NCBI GenBank assembly: GCA_030834905.1
Contig: JAUQWZ010000057.1
Location: forward strand, 62,001 to 126,000
Direction: 5' to 3'
DNA length: 64,000 nucleotides
From: Aggregatilineales bacterium
GTDB taxonomy: Bacteria > Chloroflexota > Anaerolineae > Aggregatilineales > Phototrophicaceae
Shown here: positions 7,447-42,576 of the stretch, in pieces
How the letters are laid out: every line of letters starts with the position of its first letter
Position numbering within the stretch: the first letter of the stretch is position 1
Translations under genes and position numbers: made by a program
The notes under the pieces: model-generated
What the model was told of the DNA's origin: nothing
Database searches by the model: none
Seen by the model: the letters and a program-made list of their open reading frames with translations, nothing else

Positions 7447-9105
7447 TTAGTTCTCGTTGATGACGCTGAAGATCATCGGTCGGCGCTTGGTTTCGTTGTA
7501 CAGCATCCGGCTGAGCGATTCCTGCAGGCGTTCGCGGCGCTTGCCATTGCGCGCCTGCCGGGTGTTCAGCAGGACATCATGGACGGTGCGCTTGACGCCG
7601 TCGATCAGCTCGTCGGCATCGCGCAGATAAATGAACCCGCGCGAAATGATTTCCGGATCGCCTAACACTTCACCGGTATCGCTGTCCACATTGACGACCA
7701 CCATCAGGAAGCCGTCGCGCGCCAGCACCTCGCGGTCGCGCATGACCGCGCGCCCCACGTCGCCGACGCCGCTGCCGTCCACAAAGACATAGCCGCCGGG
7801 CACGCGCTCGCCGACGCGCATCCCATGTTTGTCGATTTCGAGCACATGCCCGTTTTCGACTACGAAGATGTTCTTTTCGGGAATGCCTAACTGCATCCCC
7901 AGTTTCTTGTGCGCCCGCAGATGGCGAAGCTCGCCGTGAATGGGCAGGAAGAAGCGCGGATTCAGCAGGCTGATCAACAGCTTCATTTCTTCCTGCGAGC
8001 CGTGACCGGAGACGTGTACCGGTGCCAGCGGATCGTAGATTACATCCGCGCCGCGCTGAAACAGCTTGTTAATCGTCCGGCTGACGGTTTCCTCGTTGCC
8101 GGGGATGGTATGCGCCGAGACAACAATGGTATCGCCCGCCATGACGTCGAGACTGCGATGCTGTCCGGTCGCCAGTCGTCCGAGCACCGCCGAGGGTTCG
8201 CCCTGCGACCCGGTCGCCATGATCACCAGCTCGTGCGGAGGAATGCTGTTGATTTGACCAAGCTCCACCAGTCGCTCATCCGGTATATTCAGGATGCCGA
8301 TCCGGCGGGCAGTCTTGACGTTTTCGGTCATGCTGTGCCCGGCAATTGCCAGCTTGCGGTTGTAACGCGCGGCGAAATCGGCAATCTGCTGGATACGCGA
8401 GAGATGTGAGGCGAAGGTAGCGACAATGATGCGGTCTTTCGCCTGGCGGAAGATGTCGTCGAATGCATCGTTGACGACGCTTTCCGACGGCGTCCAGCCG
8501 GGCTTCTCGGCGTTGGTACTGTCGCCCATGAACAGCAGCACGCCGCGCTTGGCAAACTCGCCGAGCTTGGCGTAATCGGGCTTCTTGCCGTCAATGGGCG
8601 TGTTGTCGAATTTGTAGTCGCCGCTGTGAACGATGATGCCAAACGGCGTGGTGATGCCAAAGCCGACACAGTCCGGGATACTGTGCGTCATGTGGAAGCT
8701 TTCGACCTTGAAGGGACCGACCTTGAGGGTATCGCCCGGCTTAAAGACGTTGATGGTGGTCGCGTCGGTCAAACGAGCGTCGCGCAGCTTGACTTCAAGC
8801 AGCGCCGCCGTCAGCGGCGTGGCATACAGCGGTATACCCCGCAGCGCATCGACCACATAAGCCGCCGCGCCGGTATGATCCTCGTGCCCGTGGGTGTAGA
8901 GGATACCGTGAATGGTCAGATCCTTGCGTTCGAGCAGGTAGCGGAAGTCAGGAATGATCAAATCGACACCGAGCATATCGTTCGCGGGGAACATCACGCC
9001 CGTGTCAATGATGATCGCATCATTCCCCCACTCGACCACGGTCATGTTCTTGCCGACTTCACCCAGACCGCCTAGTGGAATGATCCGTATTTTCTGTTTT
9101 GACAT
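7447..9105 (-). CDS. rnj: Ribonuclease J
   Basis: A 552-residue metallo-beta-lactamase/beta-CASP nuclease. The metal motif THGHEDHTG is at about residues 70-78, and HSIPDCVGFGI, HSGDYKFD and the beta-CASP motifs (GDSTNAE, ATGSQGEP, VHVSGHGSQEE) follow in the family order. The last 100 residues are the dimerisation/C-terminal domain. RNase J is both an endonuclease and a 5'-3' exonuclease in mRNA decay and rRNA processing. Length is normal. It is a single gene, separated from the aminosugar operon upstream by a 190-bp AT-rich gap with its own promoter. Confidence 0.95.
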   Translation of the reverse strand: MSKQKIRIIPLGGLGEVGKNMTVVEWGNDAIIIDTGVMFPANDMLGVDLIIPDFRYLLERKDLTIHGILYTHGHEDHTGAAAYVVDALRGIPLYATPLTAALLEVKLRDARLTDATTINVFKPGDTLKVGPFKVESFHMTHSIPDCVGFGITTPFGIIVHSGDYKFDNTPIDGKKPDYAKLGEFAKRGVLLFMGDSTNAEKPGWTPSESVVNDAFDDIFRQAKDRIIVATFASHLSRIQQIADFAARYNRKLAIAGHSMTENVKTARRIGILNIPDERLVELGQINSIPPHELVIMATGSQGEPSAVLGRLATGQHRSLDVMAGDTIVVSAHTIPGNEETVSRTINKLFQRGADVIYDPLAPVHVSGHGSQEEMKLLISLLNPRFFLPIHGELRHLRAHKKLGMQLGIPEKNIFVVENGHVLEIDKHGMRVGERVPGGYVFVDGSGVGDVGRAVMRDREVLARDGFLMVVVNVDSDTGEVLGDPEIISRGFIYLRDADELIDGVKRTVHDVLLNTRQARNGKRRERLQESLSRMLYNETKRRPMIFSVINEN

Positions 9106-9299: not shown

Positions 9300-10442
9300 T
9301 TAACGCCAGTCCTCAAAGGCGAACATGGCATGGATGACCCGCATCTGTTCGTCTTCGGTCAAATCGTTGTATAACGGCAGCCGCACCAGACGGTCGCTGA
9401 TGTCTTCGGTGACCGGGCAGTCGCCATCTTTGCCGCCCAGCGCCCGCCCCATATCCGAGAGGTGAAGCGGCAGATAGTGAAACACACTCAGGATGCCGTG
9501 TGATTTCAGGTGGTCGATAAATGCCCCGCGAACTTCCAGAGACGGCATCAGCAGGTAGAACATGTGATAGGGCTGCTGGCAGTATTCCGGCACGACTGGC
9601 AGGCGAACCTCGTGGCTGTCCGCCCACTGCCCCAGATGCTGCCAGTAGGTATTCCAGACGCGCCCGCGATTGCGCTGAATGACTTCACGCTGTTCAAGCT
9701 GGGCGTACAGGTATGCCGCCAGCACATCCGACGGCAGGTAGCTGGAGCCGATATCGACCCAGGTATATTTATCGACCATGCCCCGGAAGAAGCGGCTGCG
9801 GTTGGTGCCTTTTTCGCGGATGATTTCGGCGCGTTCGACCAGCGAAGGATCATTGATCAGCAGCGCGCCGCCTTCGCCGCAGGTGAAGTTTTTGGTTTCG
9901 TGGAAGCTCTGCGTTGCCAGCACACCAAACGTACCCAGTTGTTTGCCCTTGTAGCTGCCAAACAGTCCGTGGGCGTTGTCTTCAACGACTGCCAGATTGT
10001 GCTGCGCCGCGATGTCCATAATGGCATCCATCTCGCAGCCAACGCCGGCGTAATGAACCACGACGATGGCTTTGGTGTTCGGCGTGATCAGGTTTTCAAG
10101 CAGGCGTTCGTCAATGTTCAGCGTGTCGGGGCGAATATCGACGAAAACCGGAATTGCGCCGCGCAGAACGAAGGCATTGACCGTCGAGACGAAGGTGAAC
10201 GACGGCACGATAACTTCGTCGCCGGGCGCTAAATCCAGCAGCAGCGCCGCCATTTCGAGCGCGTGGGTGCAGGAAGTCGTCAGCAGGACTTTAGGAACGC
10301 CAACGGCGGTTTCGAGCAGTTGGTGACACCGGCGGGTGTAGCTGGCATCGCCGGAAATCTTGCCTGATTTAACGGCATCAGCGATGTATTCAAGCTCGCT
10401 GCCAGCGATAGAAGGCTTGTTAAACGGGATCGTGATGTCCAT
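9300..10442 (-). CDS. wecE: dTDP-4-amino-4,6-dideoxygalactose transaminase (WecE/RffA type)
   Basis: A 380-residue PLP-dependent DegT/DnrJ/EryC1 aminotransferase. The PLP site lies in VEDNAHGLFGSYKGKQLG and the lysine in SFHETKNFTCGEGGA, the version specific to the WecE branch. This enzyme transfers an amino group to the C4 keto group of dTDP-4-keto-6-deoxyglucose, giving dTDP-4-amino-4,6-dideoxygalactose. The substrate would come from RfbA and RfbB, both encoded in this window. It is the last gene of a four-gene operon and follows the WecD-like gene by 29 bases. Length is that of the family. Confidence 0.9.
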   Translation of the reverse strand: MDITIPFNKPSIAGSELEYIADAVKSGKISGDASYTRRCHQLLETAVGVPKVLLTTSCTHALEMAALLLDLAPGDEVIVPSFTFVSTVNAFVLRGAIPVFVDIRPDTLNIDERLLENLITPNTKAIVVVHYAGVGCEMDAIMDIAAQHNLAVVEDNAHGLFGSYKGKQLGTFGVLATQSFHETKNFTCGEGGALLINDPSLVERAEIIREKGTNRSRFFRGMVDKYTWVDIGSSYLPSDVLAAYLYAQLEQREVIQRNRGRVWNTYWQHLGQWADSHEVRLPVVPEYCQQPYHMFYLLMPSLEVRGAFIDHLKSHGILSVFHYLPLHLSDMGRALGGKDGDCPVTEDISDRLVRLPLYNDLTEDEQMRVIHAMFAFEDWR

Positions 10443-10471
10443 GTCATAAACTCGTCAACCCGTGTTGGATG

Positions 10472-11182
10472 CTAGAACCAGCGATGATACCAGAGGTGAA
10501 CGAACTTTGTCATGAATCCACGGCGTTGGTATACCCGCTGCGCCCGGACATTGCGCCCCTGAGTGACGACGGTGGTTTCACTGACACCCTGCTGCCTGAA
10601 CCATTCCAGCGCCGAATCGATCAGCATGGTACCGAAACCTTTTCCCTGAGCAGCTGCGCTCACGCCCAGCAGCCCGATCTTTCCCTGATCGCCTTCGAGA
10701 TGGCAGGTGATGTATCCCACTGGCAGCGTGCCGTCCACAGCGACCAGCACCTGATCGGCGAAGCCGTTGGCGCTGTTTTCCACCCAGGTTTCATACAGGC
10801 GGTCGCTTTGTTCGGGCGGGATGGAGTCGTCGGCATAAAAGCGGGAATCGCGGTGGCTGACGCGGGCGATAGCTTTCAGCGCTGGCAGATCGGAAGGCTG
10901 GTGCGGGCGAATATCGGCATGACGGACGGCGGGCTGTTCGGCTGGTTTTATTTTCAGGGTGAGGCGAATATCCATCAAGCGAAACTGGTGCTGTTCTGCC
11001 AGCCGCACCGTCTCCAGGTCACTGGCGATCACCAGCAGGTAGAGCAGATCGATCTGTTCGGCGGCGCACCACGCCAGCACCTGCTCAACGCTGCGCTCGT
11101 TCAGGGATTCGTGGCGGACGCGGGCGATTCGCCGCTGGAAGAAGTCCGAGTCCCAGGGCAGGAACTGGCAGAGATCAGTCAT
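10472..11182 (-). CDS. WecD/RffC-like sugar N-acyltransferase (GNAT)
   Basis: A 236-residue protein. The N-terminal part has LPWDSDFFQRRIARV, the signature segment of WecD (dTDP-fucosamine acetyltransferase). The C-terminal GNAT fold has the acyl-CoA loop in LLGVSAAAQGKGFGTML and ends with a conserved VTQGRNVRAQRVYQRRGF helix. The expected reaction is acetylation of the C4 amino group made by WecE. It overlaps the glycosyltransferase gene upstream by 8 bases. Substrate assignment rests on the operon and on this signature; a related 4-amino sugar is possible. Confidence 0.8.
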   Translation of the reverse strand: MTDLCQFLPWDSDFFQRRIARVRHESLNERSVEQVLAWCAAEQIDLLYLLVIASDLETVRLAEQHQFRLMDIRLTLKIKPAEQPAVRHADIRPHQPSDLPALKAIARVSHRDSRFYADDSIPPEQSDRLYETWVENSANGFADQVLVAVDGTLPVGYITCHLEGDQGKIGLLGVSAAAQGKGFGTMLIDSALEWFRQQGVSETTVVTQGRNVRAQRVYQRRGFMTKFVHLWYHRWF

Positions 11183-12110
11183 CGGTCGGTTCGGCGGTAG
11201 TCGAGCGCACGGTGTACACCGGGCGATCCATCATGCGAATGTGAATCCGCGCCAGATATTCGCCAATGATGCCGAGTGCGAACAACTGCGCCCCGGCAAA
11301 AATGGTGATGATCGAGGCGAGGAATGGAAAGCCTTCCACTGGCGTGCCCTGAATGAGATAACGTCCGATCACGTAGACCAGCACCAGTAAGCCAAACAGG
11401 GTGAACAAAAAGCCGGTCAGACTGGCGAACTGAAGCGGCAGCACGCTAAAGCCGGTGATCATGTTGATGGCGTGCCGCGCCAGCTTGCGGAAAGTGTAGT
11501 TCGAGGTGCCATGCCTGCGTTCTACGTGCGGCACCGTCACCGCCGCGAACCGGGTTGTCCCCCAGGTGAGCAGCACGTCAATGGTCACGTTCGGGCTGTG
11601 GTAGCTGGTGAAGGCATCTCGCAGCGGGGTTCGGAAGGCGCGAAAGGCGCTCACACTGCGGGCAATATCCACGCCCATGCTGCTTTGCAGGGCGATCTTG
11701 GTGATCTGTGAGGCGAGATCGCGCCAAAGTCCATGCTGTTCCTGTGCAGGCGAGCCGTAGACGACGTCGTAGCCTTCGTTCAGCTTATCCAGCAGCTTGT
11801 GAATTTCGGTTGGCGGATGCTGGAGGTCATCATCCATGGTGACGATCAGATTATACTGCGCGGCGCGGATGCCGCACAGCAGGGCGTTGTGCTGACCATA
11901 GTTGCGCATCAAGCCAATGCCGCGCAGCCAGGGATACTGGCGCGCAAGCTGCTGGATGACCAGCCAACTGTTATCCGGGCTGCCGTCATCCACCAGGATC
12001 GCCTCGTAATGCTGGGCGAGGGTCGGCAGAACCTGTGCCAGCTCGGCGGTCAGTTCGGGCAGATTTTCCGCGCCCCGATAAACCGGAATGACAATTGAAA
12101 GTGATTCCAT
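11175..12110 (-). CDS. Membrane glycosyltransferase family 2 (ArnC/DPM1-like)
   Basis: 311 residues when started at the ATG at 12110 (MESLSIVIPVYRG). The open frame runs further upstream, but that part is only the shadow of the previous gene. The GT-A domain covers residues 1-225, with the nucleotide-sugar Asp motif in ILVDDGSPDNSW and DDD in VTMDDDLQHPP. Two C-terminal membrane helices follow (LPLQFASLTGFLFTLFGLLV and an ASIITIFAGAQLFALGIIGE region). This layout matches enzymes that load a sugar onto undecaprenyl phosphate. It starts 4 bases after the GCS2-like gene and overlaps the WecD-like gene, so it is firmly part of the operon. Confidence 0.87.
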   Translation of the reverse strand: MESLSIVIPVYRGAENLPELTAELAQVLPTLAQHYEAILVDDGSPDNSWLVIQQLARQYPWLRGIGLMRNYGQHNALLCGIRAAQYNLIVTMDDDLQHPPTEIHKLLDKLNEGYDVVYGSPAQEQHGLWRDLASQITKIALQSSMGVDIARSVSAFRAFRTPLRDAFTSYHSPNVTIDVLLTWGTTRFAAVTVPHVERRHGTSNYTFRKLARHAINMITGFSVLPLQFASLTGFLFTLFGLLVLVYVIGRYLIQGTPVEGFPFLASIITIFAGAQLFALGIIGEYLARIHIRMMDRPVYTVRSTTAEPTDD

Positions 12111-12114
12111 AGCG

Positions 12115-13911
12115 TTATTCTTCAAGATAGCGCCTGCGCAGTGCCTGATGCACATCGTTGACGACCTGCTGCACCACGTCCGGGTTATGCGCGCCCGGCG
12201 TGCCGCCAGCTTCGACAAAGGTGTTTCGCAGAATACGCCCCCAGTTGCCGGTGCTGCGCAGTTTCGGATCGAGAATGTACTGCTGGATCGTCTGCGCCTC
12301 GTGACCGCTGGGCGGTTCCAGCATCCGGCACAGGCTGGTGTATACCTCGTCAATGTCGCGCGGGGTAATCTCGTTCACTTCGTCGAGGGCGCGGTGCAGG
12401 TAGCGGCGTTTCATCTCGTAGAATTCAGACAGCCGCATCTGCGTGCCAGCCGCCGTCGTCAGCACCATGTCGGTGCCTTCATGGTCAGAAAGATCGTGCT
12501 GCTGCTGGAAGGTTTCACGGTCCAGCGGTCCCAGAATTGCCCACAGGGTCGGGTCGCTGTACATCGGCGCTAGGTCGCAGCCATACTTGCGGAAATAGAG
12601 TTCGATCAGCGCGTGACTGAACTCAAAATCGATCAGGACTGCCGCCATGCGCGAGGCGCTGGCGTTGGTGGGCATTCCGGTGCTTTCAACCGTACACACC
12701 CGCTTTGACGTGGTCAGGTCGGAACGGACGCGCCCGACCGGATTGTGCATCACCGAAACCGCCTCGCCTAATCCATCTTCGTAAAGGTGAGCGCGCCCGA
12801 CGGCATTGGCGCGTTCCAGCCGCAGCAGTTCGGCGTAATGGCTTAAGCCGCCGGGCTGAAGGTGCGGGCTGGTCGGCATGTTCAGGAAGCGCCCGGTGAC
12901 GGTGGCGCGGCGCACAAATTCGCGGGTATCGAGCAGGTCGGGGTCGCAGGTGCCGTTGACGAACGGCGAACCTTTCAGCACCGCAGCGTTCGCCAGCGCC
13001 GTCGCGCTCTTGAGCATGGTATGGAACGTGAGCAGCCCAAGCGCTTCGGAACGTCCGGCAATGTCAATATGAATGTGGCATCCCTGGATGCGGAACATAT
13101 TGACGTAATGACAAGCCAGCGGGTCGATATGGTAACGCGCCTGCGTTTCCGCCAGCCGCTGCGCATATTCGGGGAACAAGCCGTTCACCTCAAGCATCAG
13201 ATCGACGGCGGTGGCGACCTTCGGATGATCCGTCATCCTGAAGTCAGACAGCGTGGGATAACTGGACATAATCGCGGTCGTCAAGCCGGTGTCATCGGCT
13301 GCCAGCATCAGGGCGGTCAGAATGCCGCTGAGGGCGCTGCGGGTTTTGGAATAGCCAACGCTGGGGGCGATATGGGCTTCCACCTGATACAGACAGGCTT
13401 CGCGATCCAGACGCGGGTAAATGCCGATACGCAGCGCGTGGGTGTAATAGGCTTGCATGTAATGCTGGACTTCGTCTTCCGTCGGCGAGCGTCCGTCAGA
13501 ATGGACCAGCCCAAGCTCAATCTCCGCGCCAAGCACGCGCAGCCGCGTGCCAGAGTCCTCGGTTTCGTGGATGTTAGTGTGGTTGACACTAGGATTCAGG
13601 TTATAGGGAATAATGCTTTCCTGATAGGAATGCCCGCTGCGGTAACGGCTGCTGACGAGGCTGCCCAACACATGGGCGTGTCCGTTCTGGCTGGCGAGAA
13701 ACACGTTAGCGTCCTGGTCGTTGGCTGCGTCGTAGTAAGCCGTGACCGGCACGCCGGTGGCGCTGGACAGTGTTTCGAGCGCGTGTTCGTGCGTGGCGTC
13801 CTGGCTAAGTCCTGCGAGCGCCTGGTTGAACTTGCGCTTCTGTCGTTCAATTTCCTGCCAGGGCAAGGCTTCGCTGAACGCGACTAAAGTTTCGTTTGAG
13901 GGCAGCGACAT
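12115..13911 (-). CDS. Divergent GCS2/carboxylate-amine ligase-like protein
   Basis: A 598-residue protein, first gene of the operon. Motifs resemble the GCS2 (YbdK-like) branch of the glutamine-synthetase fold: LGAEIELGLVHSDG (about 127-140) for the first acidic strand, YQVEAHIAPSVG, then GCHIHIDIAG (about 287-296), the equivalent of the GxHVHVG metal strand, and a downstream ASPF-like AAVLKGSPFVNGT. A Thr/Glu-rich VCTVESTGMPTNASASR fits the late active-site strand. Such enzymes join a carboxylate (often glutamate) to an amine using ATP. It is longer than usual members (about 370-450), with an extra N-terminal region of about 120 residues. A role tied to the 4-amino sugar made by its neighbours is an inference. 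Confidence 0.62.
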   Translation of the reverse strand: MSLPSNETLVAFSEALPWQEIERQKRKFNQALAGLSQDATHEHALETLSSATGVPVTAYYDAANDQDANVFLASQNGHAHVLGSLVSSRYRSGHSYQESIIPYNLNPSVNHTNIHETEDSGTRLRVLGAEIELGLVHSDGRSPTEDEVQHYMQAYYTHALRIGIYPRLDREACLYQVEAHIAPSVGYSKTRSALSGILTALMLAADDTGLTTAIMSSYPTLSDFRMTDHPKVATAVDLMLEVNGLFPEYAQRLAETQARYHIDPLACHYVNMFRIQGCHIHIDIAGRSEALGLLTFHTMLKSATALANAAVLKGSPFVNGTCDPDLLDTREFVRRATVTGRFLNMPTSPHLQPGGLSHYAELLRLERANAVGRAHLYEDGLGEAVSVMHNPVGRVRSDLTTSKRVCTVESTGMPTNASASRMAAVLIDFEFSHALIELYFRKYGCDLAPMYSDPTLWAILGPLDRETFQQQHDLSDHEGTDMVLTTAAGTQMRLSEFYEMKRRYLHRALDEVNEITPRDIDEVYTSLCRMLEPPSGHEAQTIQQYILDPKLRSTGNWGRILRNTFVEAGGTPGAHNPDVVQQVVNDVHQALRRRYLEE

Positions 13912-14090
13912 GATGTTTCTCTCCCGTGAGGGCAGGTATTGATGAAGGCACGGGTGTTGTGCGAGCCTAATTCTCTCTTATAGCGCATGTTCCGACAAGT
14001 TCGAATATGGAACGCAATTGGAAAAAATATGAAATCGCACTATTATTGAACCTGTTTCGCGCTTGTCCTCACGCATGGAGCAGCCGCCTC

Positions 14091-15122
14091 ATGACTACGA
14101 TCTGGTCCCTGCCACAAATTGAAATTACTGACCTTGCCACTGTGAAAGAGTCCCGCCCCACTGCCCTGGTCACGGGTGAGCGCTCATGGCAGGCGGTCAA
14201 TACACTGCTCGAGCTGCCGGTGGTCGTGCAGGCTGAACCACAGCGCGCCGACCTGGATTATCTGGAAATGCTGGCGGCGAACCTGCCGCCGCAGGTGGAA
14301 GTCGTCTATGGCGTTGGCGGTGGTCTGGTGAGTGACGTTGCCAAATACCTGGGTTGGTCAAGGAAACTTCCGGTTATCGTGGTGCCAACCGCGCTGAGCC
14401 AGGATGGGTTTATGACGTCATTGGTCGCCTGCCGGACAGCCGGTTCGGTGCAGTACACGACCACCGGACCCGTCTCCAGGATGCTGGTGGACTGGGAAAT
14501 TATTCGCGGCGCGCCTTCGTATGTGCGCGGCGCGGGAATCGCCGAGCTGCTGACGATTGTGACCGGCTTGCTCGACTGGCGTTATGCCGCCGAACGCAAC
14601 AAAACGACGCCAGAAACGCGGTTTCAGCCCTGGGCGGCGGGATTGATGGCAGGGATTGCCCAGCAGGCTTTCAAGATTGCGGCAGGTGTTGGGCGCGGCA
14701 ATGTCGAATCGCTGCGCAATCTGCTTGATCTGCTGTGTCTGGAGGTGCAGCTAACCAACCAGATCGGGCACAACCGCCCGCAGGAAGGCAGCGAGCAGTT
14801 CTTCGCCTATGCAATCGAGCAGCGGGCAGGACGCGGGCGACCTCTGCCATATGCGGATCGGGTGGGTCCTGGCATTCTGATCTCGGCGGCGCTGCACGGG
14901 CAGGATATTGAGCCGATCCGCGCTACCCTGCAATCCGCCGGTATCCGGTTGGGACAGCTTCGCCCGGATGACATTATCGACACTTTAAACGCGCTGCCTG
15001 AATACGTCGTCGCGCATGACCTTCCGTACAGCATCATCAACGAGATGGATCTGTCATCGGAACGGGTGCAGGAACTGCTGGCGACAACCGGACTTGACAC
15101 TTCTGGAGCGCGTCCACTGTAA
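14091..15122 (+). CDS. Glycerol-1-phosphate dehydrogenase-like protein with altered metal site
   Basis: 343 residues from the ATG at 14091; an ATG at 14007 would add 28 poor-quality residues. It belongs to the Fe-ADH/dehydroquinate-synthase superfamily, closest in pattern to EgsA/AraM: VVYGVGGGLVSDVAKYLGW for NAD binding and VPTALSQDGFMTSLVA in the substrate loop. The usual metal ligands look replaced. The Asp motif (normally GxGD) reads GIAELLTIVTG, the EH motif reads GSEQFFAYAIE, and the HGxxVG motif reads YADRVGPG. It may therefore be inactive, use another chemistry or have a different metal site. It stands 25 bases before the phosphohexomutase, a likely two-gene unit. Confidence 0.7.
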   Translation: MTTIWSLPQIEITDLATVKESRPTALVTGERSWQAVNTLLELPVVVQAEPQRADLDYLEMLAANLPPQVEVVYGVGGGLVSDVAKYLGWSRKLPVIVVPTALSQDGFMTSLVACRTAGSVQYTTTGPVSRMLVDWEIIRGAPSYVRGAGIAELLTIVTGLLDWRYAAERNKTTPETRFQPWAAGLMAGIAQQAFKIAAGVGRGNVESLRNLLDLLCLEVQLTNQIGHNRPQEGSEQFFAYAIEQRAGRGRPLPYADRVGPGILISAALHGQDIEPIRATLQSAGIRLGQLRPDDIIDTLNALPEYVVAHDLPYSIINEMDLSSERVQELLATTGLDTSGARPL

Positions 15123-16692: not shown

Positions 16693-17997
16693 CTACGACG
16701 ATCCATTGCCGCGCGCGATGCGGTTGAGCAGATCGAACCAGAACGGCGCGCCCTGAGAAATGGCGATGACCGTGATTGCCCAGCCGACGAGTTTGCGAAT
16801 CAGCAAACCAAACCAGTTGGGGTTATTCGCCGGACCGAAATTCCAGAGGTTGCGCAGGCTGCCACAGGCAGCACCGGAGTCAGCCGACTGGCAGCCGTCG
16901 GTCAGCGAGGTGAAATCCCAGCCAATCGGAAGGCGAAGCGCCAGCAGACTGTCCACCGTTTCCTGGACTTCCCGCGTAGACGGCGCGACAGTGTTGGCTG
17001 TGTCCGACGCTGCGGGCGGTGCCGACGGATCGGCGGTGGCTTCCGGCGCGGGGTTCTGGGCTTCCTCAAGCGCGGTCTGCGACTGGTCGATCTCCTGCTG
17101 AAGCTGCCCGCTTTCAAGCTGGACGCGGGCGGTTTCGACCAGAGTTGCCCGCAGCGCCGGGTCGTCCCACAGCGTTTGGGCGACGAACAGCGAATCGACG
17201 TTCAGCAATGTCGCCAGCAGGACGCCGATCAGCAGCGACATATACTGGATGTTTTTCTTGTACGTCTCGGAGAGCTGATCCATGCGGGCGTTGAACCAGA
17301 ACTCGATTTTGTCCTGCGCTTCTTCAATCGAACGCGCGGAAGCCAGCAGCGTTTCCAGCGCCTTTTGCAGCACCGGATTTTGAATGTGGCGAATGCCGTC
17401 CAGCAGCGGGATAAGCTTGCTGCTTTCGTTGCTCAGGTTGAGTTCCTGGCGCATGTCGTCCGCCTGAGCCAGCGCGCCGAGCAGCGCCTGGCGGTCACCG
17501 GCGTCGCCCACGTTGCTGATGGCGCTGCGCAGTTCGGTCATGCCGATGCCTGAGCTTTGGAAGCGGCGGATCATCTCGCGGATCTGCGCCCGTTCCGCGC
17601 CTTCCAGCACCTGTTCGGTGACTTCCAGCAGCGGCGCGAACATATCACGTCCCGCGTTTGCCGAGAGGATATCCAGCAGCGCCTGCGAGAACATTTCCGG
17701 CGGAATCCACGATACCCGGCAGGGTTCGGTGGTCGAAGTAAGCTCTTCCGCCGATTGGGCGGAAATCACTTCTTCGGGCTGCACCTTCGGTTCAATCAGC
17801 CGGATCAGCGGATGCGCCATAAACTTCGCCTGAATGACCGGATCGGTGAGCAGATCGGCAATGCCGGTTTTCAGGTGCTTGGCGCGGGTGTTCAGCACGT
17901 TGGTGATGACCGTGTTGATCTGGGTGACGATGATGCTGAGAAGGCTGTAGATGAATATCATCCCGATGATGACTTCGATTATGGGGGAATTAAGCAT
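16693..17997 (-). CDS. Membrane protein of unknown function
   Basis: 434 residues. It opens with a membrane helix (VIIGMIFIYSLLSIIVTQIN), has another in the middle (YMSLLIGVLLATLLNVDSLF, about 250) and one near the C-terminus (VGWAITVIAISQGAPFWF). Between the second and third helices lies a long acidic, Ala/Gln-rich and probably coiled region. The N-terminal segment, a helix followed by RAKHLKTGIADLL, is shared with a widespread family of uncharacterised bacterial proteins. AGGAGAGGG precedes the ATG. It converges with the mutase gene. No function can be given. Confidence 0.7.
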   Translation of the reverse strand: MLNSPIIEVIIGMIFIYSLLSIIVTQINTVITNVLNTRAKHLKTGIADLLTDPVIQAKFMAHPLIRLIEPKVQPEEVISAQSAEELTSTTEPCRVSWIPPEMFSQALLDILSANAGRDMFAPLLEVTEQVLEGAERAQIREMIRRFQSSGIGMTELRSAISNVGDAGDRQALLGALAQADDMRQELNLSNESSKLIPLLDGIRHIQNPVLQKALETLLASARSIEEAQDKIEFWFNARMDQLSETYKKNIQYMSLLIGVLLATLLNVDSLFVAQTLWDDPALRATLVETARVQLESGQLQQEIDQSQTALEEAQNPAPEATADPSAPPAASDTANTVAPSTREVQETVDSLLALRLPIGWDFTSLTDGCQSADSGAACGSLRNLWNFGPANNPNWFGLLIRKLVGWAITVIAISQGAPFWFDLLNRIARGNGSS

Positions 17998-32073: not shown

Positions 32074-33186
32074 TTAGCCAGACGATGCCGGTTTCTGGCT
32101 GAAGCTTTCCCACGCCTGCTCGACAAAAGCGCCGATCTTGCGTCGGAACACCTGGGTGTCAAACTTTTCGGCGTGGGCGCGTAAGGCGACCGGGTCATAC
32201 TCGCTGGCGTCGAAGTGCTGCATGGCATTCATCAGGCTTTCGACGGTTGCCTCGTGGAACAACACGCCTGTTTCGCCCGGAATGACCGTATCGAGCGCGC
32301 CGCCGCCGCCGTAGGCGATGACCGGACGCCCCGCCGCCTGCGCCTGCACCGGCACGATGCCGAAGTCCTCTAAGCCGGGGAACAGGAACGCTTTGCAGCG
32401 CGCCATGAGTTCGGGCAGTTGCTCGTCCGGCACATAGCCCAGGAATTCAACCGTTGGACCCGCCATCTCGCGCAGGCGGTCGAGATCGCGCCCTTTGCCA
32501 CCCACTTTCAGCGGCACGCCGAGTTTGGTCGCCGCCTGCACCGCCAGGTCGATACGCTTGTAGGGGATCAGCCGCGAAACGACCAGAAAATAATCGTCGA
32601 TGGCTGCCGACGGCTTGAAGCGCCCGATATCGACCGGCGGGTAGATGATGACCGAGTCGCGGTTGTAGTAGGTCTGGATGCGCTGCTGAATTTCGGTGGA
32701 AATGGCGATAAAGTGATCGACCCGCTGGGCGGCGGCATAGTCCCAGCGGCGCATGGCGCTGACCAGCGGGCGCAGCGCCCATTCAACCGGCTTGCCCAAG
32801 CCTTCGCGGGCGATGTACGATTCCAGCGACCAGACGTAGCGCGTCGGAGCGAGGCAGTAGCAGATATGCAGCGTCCTGTCGCCAGACCGGACGCCGTGAC
32901 AGAAGCCGCTTTTGTTGCTCAGGATGACGTCATATTCGGACAGATCCAGGCTGTTCCAGCCGAGGGGATACAGCGGCAGATAGGGCTGGTGATGGCTGTG
33001 AACGCCCGGCAGCGTGTCCAACCAGAGGGTGTGAATGTCCCACTCGCTATAGGCGGGCGGCATCACGTCCGGCGCGTAGATGCTGGTATACACCGGGCTT
33101 TCAGGATACAGCGCCACCAGCGTTTCCAGCACGTCTTCAGCGCCGCCGCGCTGGTTCAGCCAATCGTGGACGAGGGCGAGTTTCAT
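32074..33186 (-). CDS. Glycosyltransferase family 4
   Basis: 370 residues of GT-B fold. The N-terminal acceptor domain opens MKLALVHDWLNQRGGAED. The donor domain has the GT4 segment VVSRLIPYKRIDLAVQAA (about 205-222) and the Glu-containing FLFPGLEDFGIVPVQAQAAGRPV (about 290-312), the E-x7-E region that binds the nucleotide sugar. There is no membrane segment, so it acts at the inner face on a lipid-linked acceptor. WbaZ-like in pattern; the sugar is not deducible. Confidence 0.88.
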   Translation of the reverse strand: MKLALVHDWLNQRGGAEDVLETLVALYPESPVYTSIYAPDVMPPAYSEWDIHTLWLDTLPGVHSHHQPYLPLYPLGWNSLDLSEYDVILSNKSGFCHGVRSGDRTLHICYCLAPTRYVWSLESYIAREGLGKPVEWALRPLVSAMRRWDYAAAQRVDHFIAISTEIQQRIQTYYNRDSVIIYPPVDIGRFKPSAAIDDYFLVVSRLIPYKRIDLAVQAATKLGVPLKVGGKGRDLDRLREMAGPTVEFLGYVPDEQLPELMARCKAFLFPGLEDFGIVPVQAQAAGRPVIAYGGGGALDTVIPGETGVLFHEATVESLMNAMQHFDASEYDPVALRAHAEKFDTQVFRRKIGAFVEQAWESFSQKPASSG

Positions 33187-33268
33187 AGGCGCAGCATCTC
33201 CCGTTGCTTACGGTCAGACCGGCGGTGATGACAGCGGGCTGTCGTCGCAGACTTCACTACAGCCCGCC

Positions 33269-33934
33269 TCACAGGAGATGTTCCATCTGCGGGCGCAGCG
33301 GCGCGAAGCTCATGCGGTGAATGGGCGAAGCGCCCAGCGTCCTGAGCGCCGCCTGATGCAGCGCCGTTCCGTAGCCCTTGTGCGCCGCAAAGCCATAGCC
33401 GGGATACAGCGCGTCCAGTTCGGTCATGAGCGTGTCACGATGGACTTTTGCCAGCACGCTGGCGGCGGCGATACTCAGCGAAAGCTGGTCACCTTTGACC
33501 AGCGCCAGATGTTTTTGCTGCAAACTGCGCCAGCGAATCGAATCGAGCAGCAGAAAGTCGGGCTGAACATCCGGCGCGCGGCGGTGGGCGTCGTCAACGG
33601 CGCGCTGCATGGCGAGGCAGGTGGCGGGGACGATGCCCAGCCGGTCAATTTCGCTGTGTTCCGCCTGTCCAATGCCCCAACTGATGGCGGTGGTCTGGAT
33701 GCGCTCGATCAGCCCGGCGCGGGCGTGTGGGGTAAGCTGCTTGCTGTCGCGCACGCCTTCCAGCAGCGCTGTTAAATCATCTCGATCCAGCGGCAGGCAG
33801 ACCGCGCCCGCGACCACAGGACCTGCCCACGCGCCGCGTCCGGCTTCGTCCACGCCAGCGATGACGCGATAACCGGCGGCGCGCAAATCGTATTCGTAGC
33901 TAAGACCGGCTGTTTTGAGTGTTCGCTTTGTCAT
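33269..33934 (-). CDS. rnhB: Ribonuclease HII
   Basis: 221 residues. Removes RNA from RNA-DNA hybrids, including single ribonucleotides. The catalytic acids are in GVDEAGRGAWAGPVV (DE pair, about residues 28-29), the second Asp in FLLLDSIRW, and SIAAASVLAKVHRD carries the family's conserved Ser/Lys. The first 35 bases overlap the end of the upstream glycosyltransferase gene, so it is translated from the polysaccharide transcript. Length is normal. Confidence 0.93.
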   Translation of the reverse strand: MTKRTLKTAGLSYEYDLRAAGYRVIAGVDEAGRGAWAGPVVAGAVCLPLDRDDLTALLEGVRDSKQLTPHARAGLIERIQTTAISWGIGQAEHSEIDRLGIVPATCLAMQRAVDDAHRRAPDVQPDFLLLDSIRWRSLQQKHLALVKGDQLSLSIAAASVLAKVHRDTLMTELDALYPGYGFAAHKGYGTALHQAALRTLGASPIHRMSFAPLRPQMEHLL

Positions 33935-34688
33935 ACAGCCCTTTGCGCCAGTTCCGACGAATGTGCCAGATCTCTCGCAGAATATTGAGCGAATCCTGTA
34001 TCAGTCTCATGCGGCTGTCCGGGTCAAAGTACCACGTAATCGGCACTTCGCGGACGGTGTAGCCGCGCCGCTTGGCGATGAACAGGATCTCCACGTCAAA
34101 GCCGATGCCGTTCATGCGCTGGACGCTGAACAGGTCTTCGGCAGACTGGCGATTGAACATCTTGAAACCGCATTGGGTGTCCTCAAAATCGGGGACGGCG
34201 GTCAGCTTGATGATCCAGTTGTTGATGCGCCCCATGAGGTGGCGATATTCCGGCTCGTCGATCCGGCGCGCGCCTTCGCCTTCACGGGTGGCGATGCTGA
34301 TGTCATACCCGTCGGAGTTGGGCGGCAGAAATTTGACGATTTCCTCAATGGGCATTGACAGATCGGTATCGCAGATGAAGCGGTACTCGCCTCTGGCATC
34401 CAGCATCCCCGCCTTAACTGCCCGTCCTTTGCCGCGCTCCTTCAGCCGGATCAGCCGGACGTGAGGATGTGACGCCGCATAGTCGAGGACGATTTCGGCG
34501 GTGCGGTCGGTGCTGCCATTATCGACGACGATAATTTCAGAGGTGAAAGGCTGGGTGCTGAGAAAGGTATCAATTTTCTCCAGGCTTGGGGGGAGTCGAT
34601 ACTCCTCATTTAGCGCGGGGATGATGATCGACAGCAGAGGATTTTCGAGACTCAAACTATACTTCTCCGATACGGCAGAATCGGGCAT
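33900..34688 (-). CDS. Glycosyltransferase family 2, dolichyl-phosphate glucosyltransferase-like
   Basis: 262 residues. A GT-A fold: LSIIIPALNEEYRLP at the N-terminus, VVDNGSTDRTAE for the nucleotide, ICDTDLSMPIEE as the DxD-type metal site (about 108-119), and DTQCGFKMFNRQSAEDLF with PITWYFDPDSRMRLIQD towards the end. This pattern matches the ALG5/DPG-synthase branch that makes polyprenyl-phosphate glucose. No membrane helix is evident. It overlaps rnhB by 35 bases and follows the other GT2 gene by 3 bases. Confidence 0.85.
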   Translation of the reverse strand: MPDSAVSEKYSLSLENPLLSIIIPALNEEYRLPPSLEKIDTFLSTQPFTSEIIVVDNGSTDRTAEIVLDYAASHPHVRLIRLKERGKGRAVKAGMLDARGEYRFICDTDLSMPIEEIVKFLPPNSDGYDISIATREGEGARRIDEPEYRHLMGRINNWIIKLTAVPDFEDTQCGFKMFNRQSAEDLFSVQRMNGIGFDVEILFIAKRRGYTVREVPITWYFDPDSRMRLIQDSLNILREIWHIRRNWRKGLYDKANTQNSRS

Positions 34689-34691
34689 GTC

Positions 34692-35720
34692 CTAGAGTTG
34701 CGGCGGCGACAGGATCGATTCCAGGTACTCAAGCGAGACGCGCCGCTGCTGCTGAATGTGCCGCCGCTTGCGGTACATGCGCGGAATTCCAAGTATACCC
34801 GCCGCCATGCCGCGCAGCCGCGCCCGCGCCGCTGCCCCGCGCCAGGCGCGCAGTGCCTGCCACGCCAGCCGCGCCTGTGCCCGCGCGATGGCGAAACCAT
34901 GTTTCCGCCACAGGCTTGAGGGCACATTCTTCACCAGGATAAAGAGCAGATTGCGCCCATCATAGTAGCTGGCGGTCACACCGCCGCCAGTTGCCGATAG
35001 ATGATGGTACACGATTGCTTGCGGAGTGTAAAGACAGCGCCAGTCTGCCAACTGCGCCCGCCAGCCTAAATCGACATCTTCGCCGGAGAAGAAGAAGTCG
35101 TCGTCCAGCAGCCCAATCTGATCGAGCATGGCGCGGCGATACACCGACGAGCCGCCGCAGGCGCTGAAGACATATTCTTCCCTGTCATACTGCCCCTCGT
35201 CGCGCTGCCAGACGCCGCGATTGCCCGGTCGCCCGTCGGTGGTGAAGAAATCGCCCGCGGTGTGAAAATGATCGCGCCGGTCAAACAGCAGCATTTTGCT
35301 GGCGACACTGCCCACGTCGTCGTGGCGCTGGAAGGCGCTGATGACCGTCTCGACCCAGCGCGAATCGACCTCGGTGTCGTTGTTGAGCAGCGCCAGAAAC
35401 TGACCCTTCGCTACCTCCAAACCGGCGTTACACGCCCCAGTGAAGCCGCGATTCTCCGGCAGGGGGATCAGCCTGACCCAGGGAAAGTCGGCTTTCAGCA
35501 TCTCCGGCGAGCCGTCGGATGAAGCGTTATCGACGACGATAACTTCGATGTCCTGAACCGTCTGCCGCGCCAGCGAATCGAGGCAGGTTGGCAGAAAGCG
35601 CCCGCCGTTCCAGTTGGGGATGATGATAGAGAGTACTGAGTGCTGAGGACGAGATGCGGTTGACTCAGTACTCAGTACCTGGTACTCAGCACTATTGGTT
35701 TCAGTGGTTTCAGGGTTCAT
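34692..35720 (-). CDS. Glycosyltransferase family 2, rhamnosyltransferase-like
   Basis: 342 residues from ATG at 35720, overlapping the rfbD end by 11 bases. The GT-A domain starts only at residue 32 (LSIIIPNWNGGRFLP), then VVDNASSDGSPE, and LNNDTEVDSRWVE as the metal site. EDVDLGWRAQLADW (about 205) is the acceptor-site motif typical of rhamnosyltransferase-type GT2. A basic Arg-rich tail ends it. The N-terminal 31 residues (NSAEYQVLSTESTASRPQHS) are encoded by the intergenic ACTGAG-type repeat, not by a conserved domain. Confidence 0.82.
   Translation of the reverse strand: MNPETTETNSAEYQVLSTESTASRPQHSVLSIIIPNWNGGRFLPTCLDSLARQTVQDIEVIVVDNASSDGSPEMLKADFPWVRLIPLPENRGFTGACNAGLEVAKGQFLALLNNDTEVDSRWVETVISAFQRHDDVGSVASKMLLFDRRDHFHTAGDFFTTDGRPGNRGVWQRDEGQYDREEYVFSACGGSSVYRRAMLDQIGLLDDDFFFSGEDVDLGWRAQLADWRCLYTPQAIVYHHLSATGGGVTASYYDGRNLLFILVKNVPSSLWRKHGFAIARAQARLAWQALRAWRGAAARARLRGMAAGILGIPRMYRKRRHIQQQRRVSLEYLESILSPPQL
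35633..35700. repeat. ACTGAG-type repeat inside a coding sequence
   Basis: AGTACTGAGTGCTGAGGAC (35632-35650) and ACTCAGTACTCAGTACC with GGTACTCAGCACT (about 35664-35693) are opposed copies of the motif found after icd and metK. Here they lie within the first codons of the glycosyltransferase. Confidence 0.75.
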
Positions 35721-36570
35721 GGGTGAGAAGCTGCTCGCGCTGAAGGAAAGTGTCCACCGCCTGCTGCCAGGGGCGAAGGCGGATGCCAATTGATTTTCCT
35801 GCCAGATTATCCAGCGGCGAATAGACCGGCGGCATCGACGGACGCGACCACTCCGCCGCCGAGATGGGTTCGATGGGTGTTTCGGCAAAGCCGGTCTGGT
35901 CGAGGACATAACGCGCCAACTGGTAGCGCGAGCAGACGCCCTCATTCACAAGATGGTAGATGCCAAACCGCTGGGTATCGATCAGCGCTGAGATGGCGTC
36001 GGCGAGATCGTCATTGTAGGTCGGGTTGGCGATTTCGTTGACGACGACGCGCAGCGGTTTGCCCGCTGTGGCGGCGTTGAGGATCGACTGGATGAAGTTT
36101 TTGCCGCCATGCGCGAACAGCCACGCCGTCCGCACGACGTAATGGCGCGGGTTGAGCCGCATGACCGCCTGCTCGCCCACCCATTTGCTGTAGCCGTAGG
36201 CGTTCACCGGATGCGCCGGGTCGTATTCACGGTAGGGGCGGCTGGCGCTGCCAGCAAAGACTTCATTAGTGCTGACGTAGACGATGGCGGCTCCGGCGGC
36301 GGCGGCAGCCAGCGCCACGTTCTGCGAGCCGAAGCCGTTGACCAGCACCGCCTGTTCGGGATCGCGGGCGCAGCCGTCTACGTCGGTCCATCCGGCGGGG
36401 TGAATGACTAAATCGGGCTTGAGGGCGGCGATTTGTCGTTGGGTGGCGGCAAAATCGGTCACATCGAGGGTATCAATGTCAAAATCGGATACGTCCAGCG
36501 CGCGCGCCTTCAGTTTTTCGACCAGCACGCTGCCGAGCCGACCACGCGCTCCGGTAACAACAATTCGCAT
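35710..36570 (-). CDS. rfbD: dTDP-4-dehydrorhamnose reductase
   Basis: 286 residues from ATG at 36570 (MRIVVTGARGRLG); a GTG at 36579 would add three. NADPH site GARGRLG at the N-terminus and the catalytic Tyr-Lys in YGYSKWVGE (about 130-138), with VSTNEVFAG before it. It performs the last step to dTDP-L-rhamnose, the reduction of the 4-keto group. The epimerase RfbC needed before it is not found in this window. It overlaps the downstream glycosyltransferase by 11 bases. Confidence 0.9.
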   Translation of the reverse strand: MRIVVTGARGRLGSVLVEKLKARALDVSDFDIDTLDVTDFAATQRQIAALKPDLVIHPAGWTDVDGCARDPEQAVLVNGFGSQNVALAAAAAGAAIVYVSTNEVFAGSASRPYREYDPAHPVNAYGYSKWVGEQAVMRLNPRHYVVRTAWLFAHGGKNFIQSILNAATAGKPLRVVVNEIANPTYNDDLADAISALIDTQRFGIYHLVNEGVCSRYQLARYVLDQTGFAETPIEPISAAEWSRPSMPPVYSPLDNLAGKSIGIRLRPWQQAVDTFLQREQLLTHEP

Positions 36571-36591
36571 ATCAGGCACTCTCAGTTGAAG

Positions 36592-37317
36592 TCAGACTGT
36601 CATCAGGATTCTATCGTCATTTGCCGCTGGCTGGAAGGATGCCCATACCGGGCTGAAGAAGCGGTTGTGCAGCTCGGTGACTTCGCCTACGTCGGTGACC
36701 AGTTCGATCACTTCGCGCCCCTGCGCCGCCTTGCGCCAGCCGAAATCGGTCAGGTTGGCAGAGCCTTTGAATGCCATCAGCCCGTCAATGACGACGATTT
36801 TCTGGTGCGGGAAATACTGCGCTTCGTTCTGAAACAGGCGCACGTTGAGGCGCGGCGATTCGTTTTCGTGTTCGGTTAGCTCGCGATAAAGCGTGTCGTG
36901 TTTGATGCCGGAAATCACCCCGCGCACATCCACACGCAGCGCCGCCATTTTGATGGCGCCCAGCAGCAGAGCGCTGATTCCGTAGGTGGTGAAGTGGATG
37001 AAGTGTTCCGCCTGTAATAAGGATTCGAGCAGCCCGCGCATGGGCGGGTAGCTGGCGTCACGCGCTGCCAGCGAGTGCCGCGTGCGCTGCGCGATCTGGG
37101 CTAGACGGCGGCTGTGCTCGATCAGGTTGTCGAAGCGCGCATCCAAGCCGCGAGCGACAAAATAACTGCCGTAATCGGTGAACGCCCCGGTGGCTACATA
37201 CTGCACGCCGCAAACCGGACAGCGCGGCGTGCCATCGGTCAGCAGCGCGAAACAACGCTCGCACAGGAATTCGGGCGGCGTGAAGCGCAGCAGTGAGTCG
37301 ATGTCGAAGCTGTTCAT
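36592..37317 (-). CDS. PLD-like protein with N-terminal zinc ribbon
   Basis: 241 residues. The N-terminal segment has CERCFALLTDGTPRCPVCG (about 19-37), a CxxC...CxxC zinc ribbon. The C-terminal part has one HKD motif, HQKIVVIDGLMAFKGSANLTDFGW (HxKx4D then GSAN, about 190). Single-HKD proteins, such as the Nuc endonuclease, act as dimers. The substrate may be nucleic acid or lipid; the zinc ribbon slightly favours nucleic acid. Its position in the sugar cluster gives no clear hint. Confidence 0.75.
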   Translation of the reverse strand: MNSFDIDSLLRFTPPEFLCERCFALLTDGTPRCPVCGVQYVATGAFTDYGSYFVARGLDARFDNLIEHSRRLAQIAQRTRHSLAARDASYPPMRGLLESLLQAEHFIHFTTYGISALLLGAIKMAALRVDVRGVISGIKHDTLYRELTEHENESPRLNVRLFQNEAQYFPHQKIVVIDGLMAFKGSANLTDFGWRKAAQGREVIELVTDVGEVTELHNRFFSPVWASFQPAANDDRILMTV

Positions 37318-37419
37318 CGCTTTCGGAAGTTCACAATCAGACAGTTTGAGCCATTAGCGTATAGGTTGCCAGAGAATGGAGACAAACGCAACTATAACTC
37401 CTGACCGGCAGGCACACGA

Positions 37420-37773: not shown

Positions 37774-37806
37774 GCTTATTTCCTCGAAGTCCAGTCTGAG
37801 AAGATT

Positions 37807-38686: not shown

Positions 38687-38725
38687 AAATCTCAAAGCAG
38701 CTTGTTGTAAAATGTGTGGAAAAAC

Positions 38726-39338: not shown

Positions 39339-40361
39339 TTACTCAGCGGCGGCGAGGCGCGCGCCGTACTGGCGCTTGTAGAATTCGAGATATTCGCCCG
39401 TCTTGATTTTGCGCCACCACCATTCATTGTCTCGATACCAGTCCACCGTCGCCTCAAGGGCGCTGTCAAAGCTGTACTGGCGCTGCCAGCCGAGCGCCCG
39501 CAGCTTGTCGCAGTTCATGGCGTAGCGGCGGTCGTGTCCTTCGCGGTCTGGTACGTGCCGGATAAGCGAGTCGTCCTTGCCCAACAAAGCAAGCAGGCGG
39601 TGGGTGACGTCGATATTATGGTGCAGGTCTTCTCCGGCGATGTTGTACGCTTCGCCCGAAACACCTTTGTGCAGCACCGCGTCAATGCCGCTGACATGAT
39701 CTTCGACGTACAGCCAGTCACGAATCTGCATCCCGTCACCGTAGACCGGCAGCGGGTGATCTTCCAGCGCTTCGGTGATGAAGAAGGGCAGCAGCTTTTC
39801 GGGATACTGGTAAGGTCCAAAGGTGTTGCTGCCGCGCGAAATCACTGTGTTCATGCCGTGTGTGACGTGATACGAACGCACCATCAGTTCGCCACCGGCT
39901 TTGCTGGCGGCATAGGGGCTGTTGGGCGCGAAAACATCGGTTTCGACCGAGTAGCCTTCGTCAACATCGCCATACACTTCGTCCGTCGAAACGTGCAGAA
40001 AGCGTTCCAGCCCATGCTGGCGACCTTCATCGAGCAGGATGTAAACGCCGACGACATCGGTGTGAATGAAGGCGTCGGCTGACAGGATGCTGCGGTCAAC
40101 GTGGCTTTCGGCGGCGAAATTGACGATGGTATCGATGTGGTGCGCTTCGAGCGCGCGGCGCAGGGCTGCCCGGTCGGCAATATCGCCCTGCTCAAAGCGG
40201 TAGTTCTCGTCGTCGGAGATGGGCAGCAGGTTATCGAGGTTGCCCGCGTAGGTCAGCTTGTCGTAGACGATGATATTGTAGTCCGGGTAGCGCCGGGTCA
40301 TGGAACGCGCGAAGGCGCTGCCGATGAAGCCAGCGCCGCCGGTCACAAGAATGTTCTTCAT
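39339..40361 (-). CDS. rfbB: dTDP-glucose 4,6-dehydratase
   Basis: 340 residues. NAD site TGGAGFIGSAFAR at the N-terminus, VSTDEVYGDVDEG (Thr/Asp/Glu catalytic residues, about 124-136) and the Tyr-Lys pair in PYAASKAGGE (about 150). It makes dTDP-4-keto-6-deoxyglucose, shared precursor of rhamnose and of the WecE aminosugar. It overlaps the HAD gene by ATGA and ends the EPS operon that starts at 44564. Confidence 0.95.
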   Translation of the reverse strand: MKNILVTGGAGFIGSAFARSMTRRYPDYNIIVYDKLTYAGNLDNLLPISDDENYRFEQGDIADRAALRRALEAHHIDTIVNFAAESHVDRSILSADAFIHTDVVGVYILLDEGRQHGLERFLHVSTDEVYGDVDEGYSVETDVFAPNSPYAASKAGGELMVRSYHVTHGMNTVISRGSNTFGPYQYPEKLLPFFITEALEDHPLPVYGDGMQIRDWLYVEDHVSGIDAVLHKGVSGEAYNIAGEDLHHNIDVTHRLLALLGKDDSLIRHVPDREGHDRRYAMNCDKLRALGWQRQYSFDSALEATVDWYRDNEWWWRKIKTGEYLEFYKRQYGARLAAAE

Positions 40362-41308: not shown

Positions 41309-42379
41309 CTAGATCATCCAGACGTTGCTGTAATCGCCCAGATTCATCGTCAGGGTTCTTGGTCGTTCGACTTTATGCTGTATCGATACGTTGCGACCGA
41401 TCAGACTGCCGTGAAGGCGGGCGTCAAGGTCGCAGATGCCGCTGTGCTCAAGCACGATGCTGCGCTCAATCTCGCAGTTCTGGACGGTTACATCGTGGTA
41501 AAGGCTGGTATAGGGACCAATGTAGCTGTTTTCGATGACGGTATTTTCGCCGATGATGGTCGGTCCGTGAACGATGCTGTTGACGATCTTCGCGCCCGCT
41601 TCGACGGTTACGCGGCGGTCTACCTCTGATCCTTCGATGACCGCGTCCGGTGCGATTCGCGGCTCGATCTCGTCGAGTACGTGGCAGTTCGCTTCCAGCA
41701 TGTCGTTGGGCTTGCCGGTGTCAATCCACCAGCCGTCATGGACGTGCGGAGACACCGTATAGCCATGATCGATCAGCCACTGAATGGCGTCAGTGATTTC
41801 AAGCTCATTGCGCCATGACGGTTTGATGGCGTGGACTGCCTCGAAGATGTGGTGATCGAACATGTAAATGCCGACCAGCGCCAGATTGCTCGGCGGCTCC
41901 TTCGGCTTCTCGATCAGCCGTTCAATGGTGCCGTCAGCGCGTAGCTGGGCGACGCCAAAGGCGCTCGGATTCGAGACGTGCTTCAGGACAATCTGGCTGT
42001 TCCAGTCGTGGTTGGCGAAGTCGCGAATCAGGCTGCTGATGCCACCCTGAATGACGTTATCGCCCAGAAACATGACAAACGAATCGCCTTGCAGAAAATC
42101 TTCTGATATCTTGACGGCGTGTGCCAGCCCGTCGGGGCTTTCCTGGGGGATATATTCGATTTGGACACCCCACTTGCTGCCGCTGCCGAGCGCCTCCATG
42201 ATTTCGGGCGCGGTCTGCCCGACGACAACGCCAATTTCATTGATTCCAGCGTCCCGGATCGATTCGATCACGCGCACCAGAATCGGCTTATTGGCGACTG
42301 GGATCAACTGCTTGGCGCGCGTGTAGGTCAGCGGGTACAGACGGGTGCCCTTGCCGCCGCTGAGAATAAGACCTTTCAT
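41309..42379 (-). CDS. rfbA: Glucose-1-phosphate thymidylyltransferase, long form
   Basis: 356 residues from ATG at 42379 (MKGLILSGGKGTRLYPLTY), with GGAG 5 bases upstream. The nucleotidyltransferase signature GGKGTRLYPLT and AKQLIPVANKPIL, then FLGDNVIQGG for the metal site. A C-terminal left-handed beta-helix (about residues 250-356) makes it the long type. It activates glucose-1-phosphate to dTDP-glucose, first step for the rhamnose and aminosugar pathways here. Confidence 0.9.
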   Translation of the reverse strand: MKGLILSGGKGTRLYPLTYTRAKQLIPVANKPILVRVIESIRDAGINEIGVVVGQTAPEIMEALGSGSKWGVQIEYIPQESPDGLAHAVKISEDFLQGDSFVMFLGDNVIQGGISSLIRDFANHDWNSQIVLKHVSNPSAFGVAQLRADGTIERLIEKPKEPPSNLALVGIYMFDHHIFEAVHAIKPSWRNELEITDAIQWLIDHGYTVSPHVHDGWWIDTGKPNDMLEANCHVLDEIEPRIAPDAVIEGSEVDRRVTVEAGAKIVNSIVHGPTIIGENTVIENSYIGPYTSLYHDVTVQNCEIERSIVLEHSGICDLDARLHGSLIGRNVSIQHKVERPRTLTMNLGDYSNVWMI

Positions 42380-42399
42380 GGAGTCTCCATCACAATCAT

Positions 42400-42576
42400 T
42401 CAACCACGGCTGAGAAGATAGCCGAGTACGAGAACGATGAGTGCGAAAAGAAAAAACAGCATCAACTGCCGGCTGCCGCCCATGACTGGCGGCAGCGCCT
42501 TCGGCGATGGGTTATTCTGCGGTAGATTGCGCCATTTTTCAACCGACTCCGGATCTGGCGGCAGAGGTTCGGTCAT
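42400..42576 (-). CDS. 58-residue membrane protein between esterase and rfbA
   Basis: A short gene read directly from the sequence: ATG at 42576, stop at 42400. It overlaps the esterase stop (TGATG), and GAGGTGA precedes the ATG by a few bases. The first 35 residues are Pro-rich and polar (MTEPLPPDPESVEKWRNLPQ). The rest is one membrane helix (QLMLFFLFALIVLVLGYLL) followed by SRG. It lies in line with the EPS operon genes, 20 bases before rfbA. No family recognised; a small accessory membrane protein is likely. Confidence 0.6.
   Translation of the reverse strand: MTEPLPPDPESVEKWRNLPQNNPSPKALPPVMGGSRQLMLFFLFALIVLVLGYLLSRG

Follow-up and report, generated by a model that had tools for sequence, protein, structure and literature searches.

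A divergent carboxylate-amine ligase beside a 4-amino sugar module in an Aggregatilineales bacterium, and its mutual exclusion with canonical GCS2

What is a carboxylate-amine ligase doing at the head of a gene set for a 4-amino sugar? The question is raised by a stretch of 64,000 nucleotides from an Aggregatilineales bacterium (the window, contig JAUQWZ010000057.1), in which four genes are packed on the minus strand: a divergent ligase of the carboxylate-amine type (12115..13911, 598 amino acids), which opens the unit, an ArnC/GtrB-like glycosyltransferase of family GT2 (11175..12110, 311 amino acids from the ATG at 12110), a WecD-like GNAT N-acyltransferase (10472..11182, 236 amino acids) and WecE, the dTDP-4-amino-4,6-dideoxygalactose transaminase (9300..10442, 380 amino acids). 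An initial annotation of this DNA had proposed that the sugar product receives an amino acid from the ligase and so becomes an aminoacylated glycolipid. Such a product is possible, but it is not the best reading. The sugar module is ordinary-looking and the unusual part is the ligase beside it, for which we put at about even chances that it is an orphan gamma-glutamyl-type ligase replacing GCS2 and separable from the neighbouring sugar module, and not a glycolipid aminoacylase.

What is new here is a mutual exclusion, within one bacterial family (f1), between the ligase and canonical GCS2. The presence/absence set comprised 61 genomes, the window genome included, with drafts 74-100% complete, and its counts are sensitive to this completeness and to the E-value thresholds (1e-90 for WecE and 1e-60 for the glycosyltransferase). 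The ligase was found in 37 of them, all from a single order (families f1, f6 and f7); a draw of 400 genomes from the phylum gave two with it, namely the window genome and one f1 relative. Canonical GCS2 (PF04107), searched across all 61 genomes, is present in none of the 32 f1 genomes with the ligase versus four of the five without it (Fisher p 8e-5), and in 3/37 versus 16/24 over the whole set (p 2e-6); in all three independent f1 pairs on supported branches the two genes take opposite states. Such avoidance between two distant paralogues suggests that their functions overlap and that the ligase does a job also done by GCS2, and we infer from it a gamma-glutamyl-type ligase. The GCS2 gene tree mostly follows the families and a single f1 clade is not rejected (p-AU 0.206); thus lineage sorting of an old pair explains the f1 copies as well as re-acquisition does, and the tree agrees with a former coexistence of the two enzymes, which f7 still shows, and later loss of either one. 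Among the loci examined, the neighbours of canonical GCS2 have no gene in common with the window operon.

The relationship of the ligase to glutamate-cysteine ligases is visible in its fold and not in the Pfam or TIGR models. The Pfam scan gave no match, GCS2 included, the TIGR02050 score is 21.6 bits, far under the cut-off of 176.4, and a sequence comparison with the PDB returned nothing useful; among 30 members of the ligase family, 24 show weak TIGR02050 matches (E up to 0.1) and two match Pfam GCS2 (best E 0.0014). The AlphaFold2 model (pLDDT 92.4) has YbdK as its top Foldseek match (6.4e-10), followed by the plant glutamate-cysteine ligase, with structural Z scores of 29.6-30.1 to YbdK-type enzymes, 23.0 to the plant enzyme, 20.6 to bifunctional glutathione synthetase and 18-20 to Dop and PafA. 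A glutamine-synthetase-type fold is thereby present, at Z 14-30 to glutamate-cysteine ligases, YbdK, Dop, PafA and glutamine synthetases. The earlier label of a GCS2-like ligase thus holds for the carboxylate-amine ligase fold, but is not matched by the family models. Residues 101-592 align with YbdK, whereas the approximately 100 N-terminal residues do not. The N-terminal 120 residues modelled alone reach a pLDDT of 81.1 with a best Foldseek match no better than E 0.6, and we did not adopt the region as a new fold.

The motifs were scored in an alignment of 30 family rows. As set out in PMC2588565, the carboxylate-amine/ammonia ligase superfamily is marked by a GhExE motif on core strand 1, by acidic residues in the second and third strands, by [HD]x[NH] in the fourth and by arginines in the fifth and in the loop leading into it. 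G128, E130 and E132 (model strand 127-137), E178 (strand 176-184) and H279xH281 (strand 277-282) occur in 30/30 rows, and D169 (strand 168-170) in 27/30. Arg330, Arg334, Arg373, Arg394 and Arg396 are invariant and are candidates for the arginines of strand 5 and its preceding loop. On strand 6, the Ex[RK]xxD motif of GCS2, which according to PMC2588565 is altered in PafA, is intact in 19/19 canonical GCS2 proteins of the relatives and is replaced here by E409-S-T411-G-M-P414, with E409, T411 and P414 in all 30 rows. The register of this strand comes from a weak hhalign match (E 0.071, probability 0.8%) together with model strand 408-410; the same match was too weak to assign the ligase to YbdK by profile and was kept for the register alone. 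The ligase is related to glutamate-cysteine ligases, though much changed, and its metal and ATP motifs are conserved.

Does the ligase belong to the sugar pathway? The locus set holds 35 loci drawn from the 37 ligase genomes; G053, where a contig end falls inside the ligase gene, and G019, where the gene is split, were left out. In the latter (L071) the ligase lies in two overlapping frames of 444 and 179 amino acids, a frameshift or an assembly error. The glycosyltransferase is near the ligase in 18 of the 35 loci (adjoining in 16, one gene off in two) and three further loci have WecE nearby, so that some module gene is found in 21. The other 14 have no nearby sugar gene, one of them (G048) being cut by a contig end just beyond the ligase, and in eight of these the RNase J-like gene follows the ligase directly. 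The genomes of these 14 loci carry WecE and the glycosyltransferase elsewhere in nine cases, WecE alone in one and neither in four, these four being the only ligase genomes (4/37) devoid of both; conversely, nine of the 24 ligase-free genomes hold both. The ligase tree shows five or more switches in the adjacency of ligase and module along well-supported branches. Gain and loss of WecE and the glycosyltransferase are coupled in 5.9/7 independent pairs (median p 0.03) on the RNase J tree, our species-tree proxy, from which G029 and G035 were omitted as having no match at 1e-120. The sugar module is a cohesive unit and the ligase a frequent but dispensable neighbour; the proposed place of the ligase within the sugar pathway is not borne out. 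The initial annotation had named a ligase mostly distant from aminosugar genes as the outcome that would count against it, and the loci are divided on this point, 14 being away from the module and 21 having at least one of its genes at hand. As a separate observation, the gene directly upstream of the ligase in three loci of one f7 genus (L072, L073 and L076) encodes a DsbA/thioredoxin-like protein whose N-terminus has a hydrophobic stretch.

Where ligase and module do adjoin, the arrangement is not due to chance, since the order ligase, glycosyltransferase, (acyltransferase), WecE repeats in relatives with 56-77% ligase identity. The coordinates reproduce the tight packing first described, with 4 bases between ligase and glycosyltransferase, an overlap of 8 bases between glycosyltransferase and GNAT and 29 bases between GNAT and WecE. 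The direction of transcription on the minus strand runs from the ligase through the glycosyltransferase and GNAT to WecE, so the ligase, which had been listed last, comes first. Ligase and sugar module are probably transcribed together. No operon with this gene set appeared in searches of open-licence PMC papers, nor did a paper there naming WecE and glutamate-cysteine ligase together. The window's gene order also occurs in L005 (JAHHHY010000012.1), labelled as the cyanobacterium Pleurocapsa minor, with protein identities of 67-77% for ligase, glycosyltransferase, WecE and RNase J; this is probably a mislabelled or co-binned metagenome-assembled genome.

The sugar half of the proposal is sound, because WecE scores above the curated cut-offs of two models for this enzyme (NF008687, 584 bits against 375; TIGR02379, 545 against 434.85), and because RmlB, dTDP-glucose 4,6-dehydratase (39339..40361, minus strand; TIGR01181, 442 bits, cut-off 365.1), and a long-form RmlA, glucose-1-phosphate thymidylyltransferase (41309..42403, minus strand; TIGR01208, 463.1 bits, cut-off 320.25), lie in the same window some 25-28 kb from the operon. 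GNAT and the glycosyltransferase fall under the equivalog cut-offs of WecD (NF008212, 114.1 against 219 bits) and ArnC (NF007986, 193.7 against 529 bits). The latter has two C-terminal hydrophobic segments, which begin at about residues 231 and 264, and is likely a polyprenyl-phosphate glycosyltransferase, in agreement with the lipid-carrier loading predicted for it from its sequence. RmlA and RmlB would produce dTDP-4-keto-6-deoxyglucose, which WecE would receive from RmlB and aminate; GNAT, or a formyltransferase in relatives, would cap the amine. The ArnC-like enzyme would then attach the sugar to undecaprenyl phosphate, ready to be transferred on the outer side of the membrane. A formyltransferase, confirmed in L045 by PF00551 and PF02911, accompanies or replaces GNAT between the glycosyltransferase and WecE in five ligase loci (L045 and L047-L050), and therefore closely related bacteria may differ in whether the sugar is N-formylated or N-acetylated. 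A membrane protein sits between ligase and glycosyltransferase in L057 and L078, that of L078 showing 12 hydrophobic segments and no Pfam match. RmlB and RmlA, with a HAD hydrolase between them, end a stretch of glycosyltransferase-like genes (32074-42403) that includes a second, shorter ArnC-like protein (33900-34688).

The unit is flanked upstream by a divergent glycerol-1-phosphate-dehydrogenase-like gene (14007..15122, plus strand; NF002022, 94.4 bits, below the cut-off of 413), which is retained beside many ligase genes of relatives, and downstream by the gene at 7447..9105 (minus strand), which we take to be RNase J-like and which is the one following the ligase in loci devoid of the sugar module. 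Further away, 16693-17997 (minus strand) encodes a conserved protein of 434 amino acids that has three hydrophobic segments and matches no Pfam model, located beside glycerol-1-phosphate dehydrogenase and PGM genes in many relatives.

We propose that the ligase, through its glutamine-synthetase fold, would phosphorylate a carboxylate and join it to an amine, glutamate being the most likely donor through its gamma-carboxylate, and that in family f1 it would take the place of the canonical YbdK-type GCS2; ligase and sugar module would be frequent neighbours, neither requiring the other. Several observations weigh against this proposal. The pair test of the exclusion, taken alone, has at most five pairs on supported branches and a median p of 0.25, short of significance; eight of the 61 genomes hold neither ligase nor GCS2, and three, all in f7, hold both. 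GCS2 also runs counter to WecE, more weakly (9/43 versus 10/18, p 0.014), and therefore the exclusion is not a property of the ligase alone and lineage effects play a part. WecE tracks the ligase (33/37 ligase genomes versus 10/24 others; the glycosyltransferase, 29/37 versus 10/24), with changes in the same direction in 3.2 of five independent pairs and in the opposite direction in none (RNase J tree, median p 0.25), a trend resting on few independent changes. A glycosyltransferase beside the ligase in 18/35 loci exceeds what a passing neighbour needs, and the altered strand-6 motif means that the substrate of the ligase may differ. Finally, the window genome has no match to the GshB-type family PF02955, and what canonical GCS2 makes naturally is not well established for many bacteria, these among them.

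The alternative that survives best is a narrower form of the same proposal, in which the ligase is a plain glutamate-cysteine ligase whose gamma-glutamylcysteine serves as a low-molecular-weight thiol and the second step to glutathione is missing. A search for the GshB-type family PF02955 in 28 of the 61 genomes found matches in four (G023, G028, G042 and G043) and none in the window genome or in the rest of the 24 negative ones; the product of the ligase would thus not be ordinary glutathione, and an ordinary glutathione pathway was rejected. The missing GshB, the closest folds being YbdK and the plant enzyme, the exclusion of GCS2 and the DsbA/thioredoxin-like neighbour in three f7 loci are all consistent with this alternative. 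However, that neighbour is confined to one genus, the strand-6 arginine of the GCS2 motif is threonine in 30/30 rows, and cysteine is not necessarily the in vivo substrate of YbdK-type enzymes. We regard this alternative as unlikely. Somewhat less likely again is a ligase that joins another carboxylate to another amine (a polyamine, a peptide or a protein side chain, as with PafA and Dop), the loss of GCS2 being incidental. The Z scores of 18-20 to Dop and PafA, the alteration of the strand-6 motif in PafA too (PMC2588565) and an N-terminal region devoid of PDB matches at E <= 0.001 agree with it, but the recurrent neighbours (open reading frames of at least 70 amino acids) include neither a Pup-like partner nor a conserved gene for a peptide, and the repeated swaps with GCS2 would be a coincidence.

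The aminoacylated glycolipid, with the ligase coupling an amino acid to the amino group of a dTDP- or polyprenyl-linked 4-amino sugar, is improbable. It would account for the position of the ligase at the start of a tight operon, for the glycosyltransferase close by in half of the loci, for the presence of WecE tracking that of the ligase, and for L046, L052 and L078, where no GNAT or formyltransferase match lies between glycosyltransferase and WecE and the amine would stay free. However, of the 18 loci where a glycosyltransferase is near the ligase, 14 have a GNAT or formyltransferase that would cap this amine (three have neither and one is cut by a contig end), the dissociation of ligase and module described above speaks against it, and the GCS2 exclusion is left unexplained. 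We consider slightly less probable still a new carboxylate-amine ligase family with a rebuilt substrate site that adds glutamate or another amino acid to the 4-amino sugar or its lipid-linked form, being the sole amine cap in L046, L052 and L078.

The ligase family itself, with its exclusion of GCS2, makes a better lead than the aminoacyl glycolipid: a lineage-bound family which escapes all Pfam models, on which our searches of the open-licence PMC literature found no paper, and which mutual exclusion ties to canonical GCS2.

Among known systems, the Arn pathway aminates a sugar, caps it, loads it on polyprenyl phosphate and transfers it. The sugar module resembles Arn and the WecE/WecD pair of enterobacterial common antigen in its aminotransferase, N-acyl or N-formyl transferase and ArnC-like glycosyltransferase, and two relatives add a many-segment membrane protein resembling GT-C; it differs from both in the scores below the ArnC and WecD cut-offs, and from Arn in a route through dTDP instead of UDP. 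With PafA and Dop of pupylation the ligase shares the superfamily fold and, for PafA, an altered strand-6 motif (PMC2588565), but its strand-4 motif is HxH and no Pup-like gene was found nearby. The plant glutamate-cysteine ligase (PDB 2gwc) shares the fold from ligase residue 55 onwards, with 13% identity. The closest system is YbdK/GCS2 (TIGR02050, PF04107; PDB 1r8g and 1tt4), with which the ligase shares the fold over residues 101-592 at Z 30, GhExE, the strand-3 glutamate and HxH, whereas it is about 230 residues longer, has 14% identity in the structural alignment, matches no Pfam model and has lost Ex[RK]xxD.

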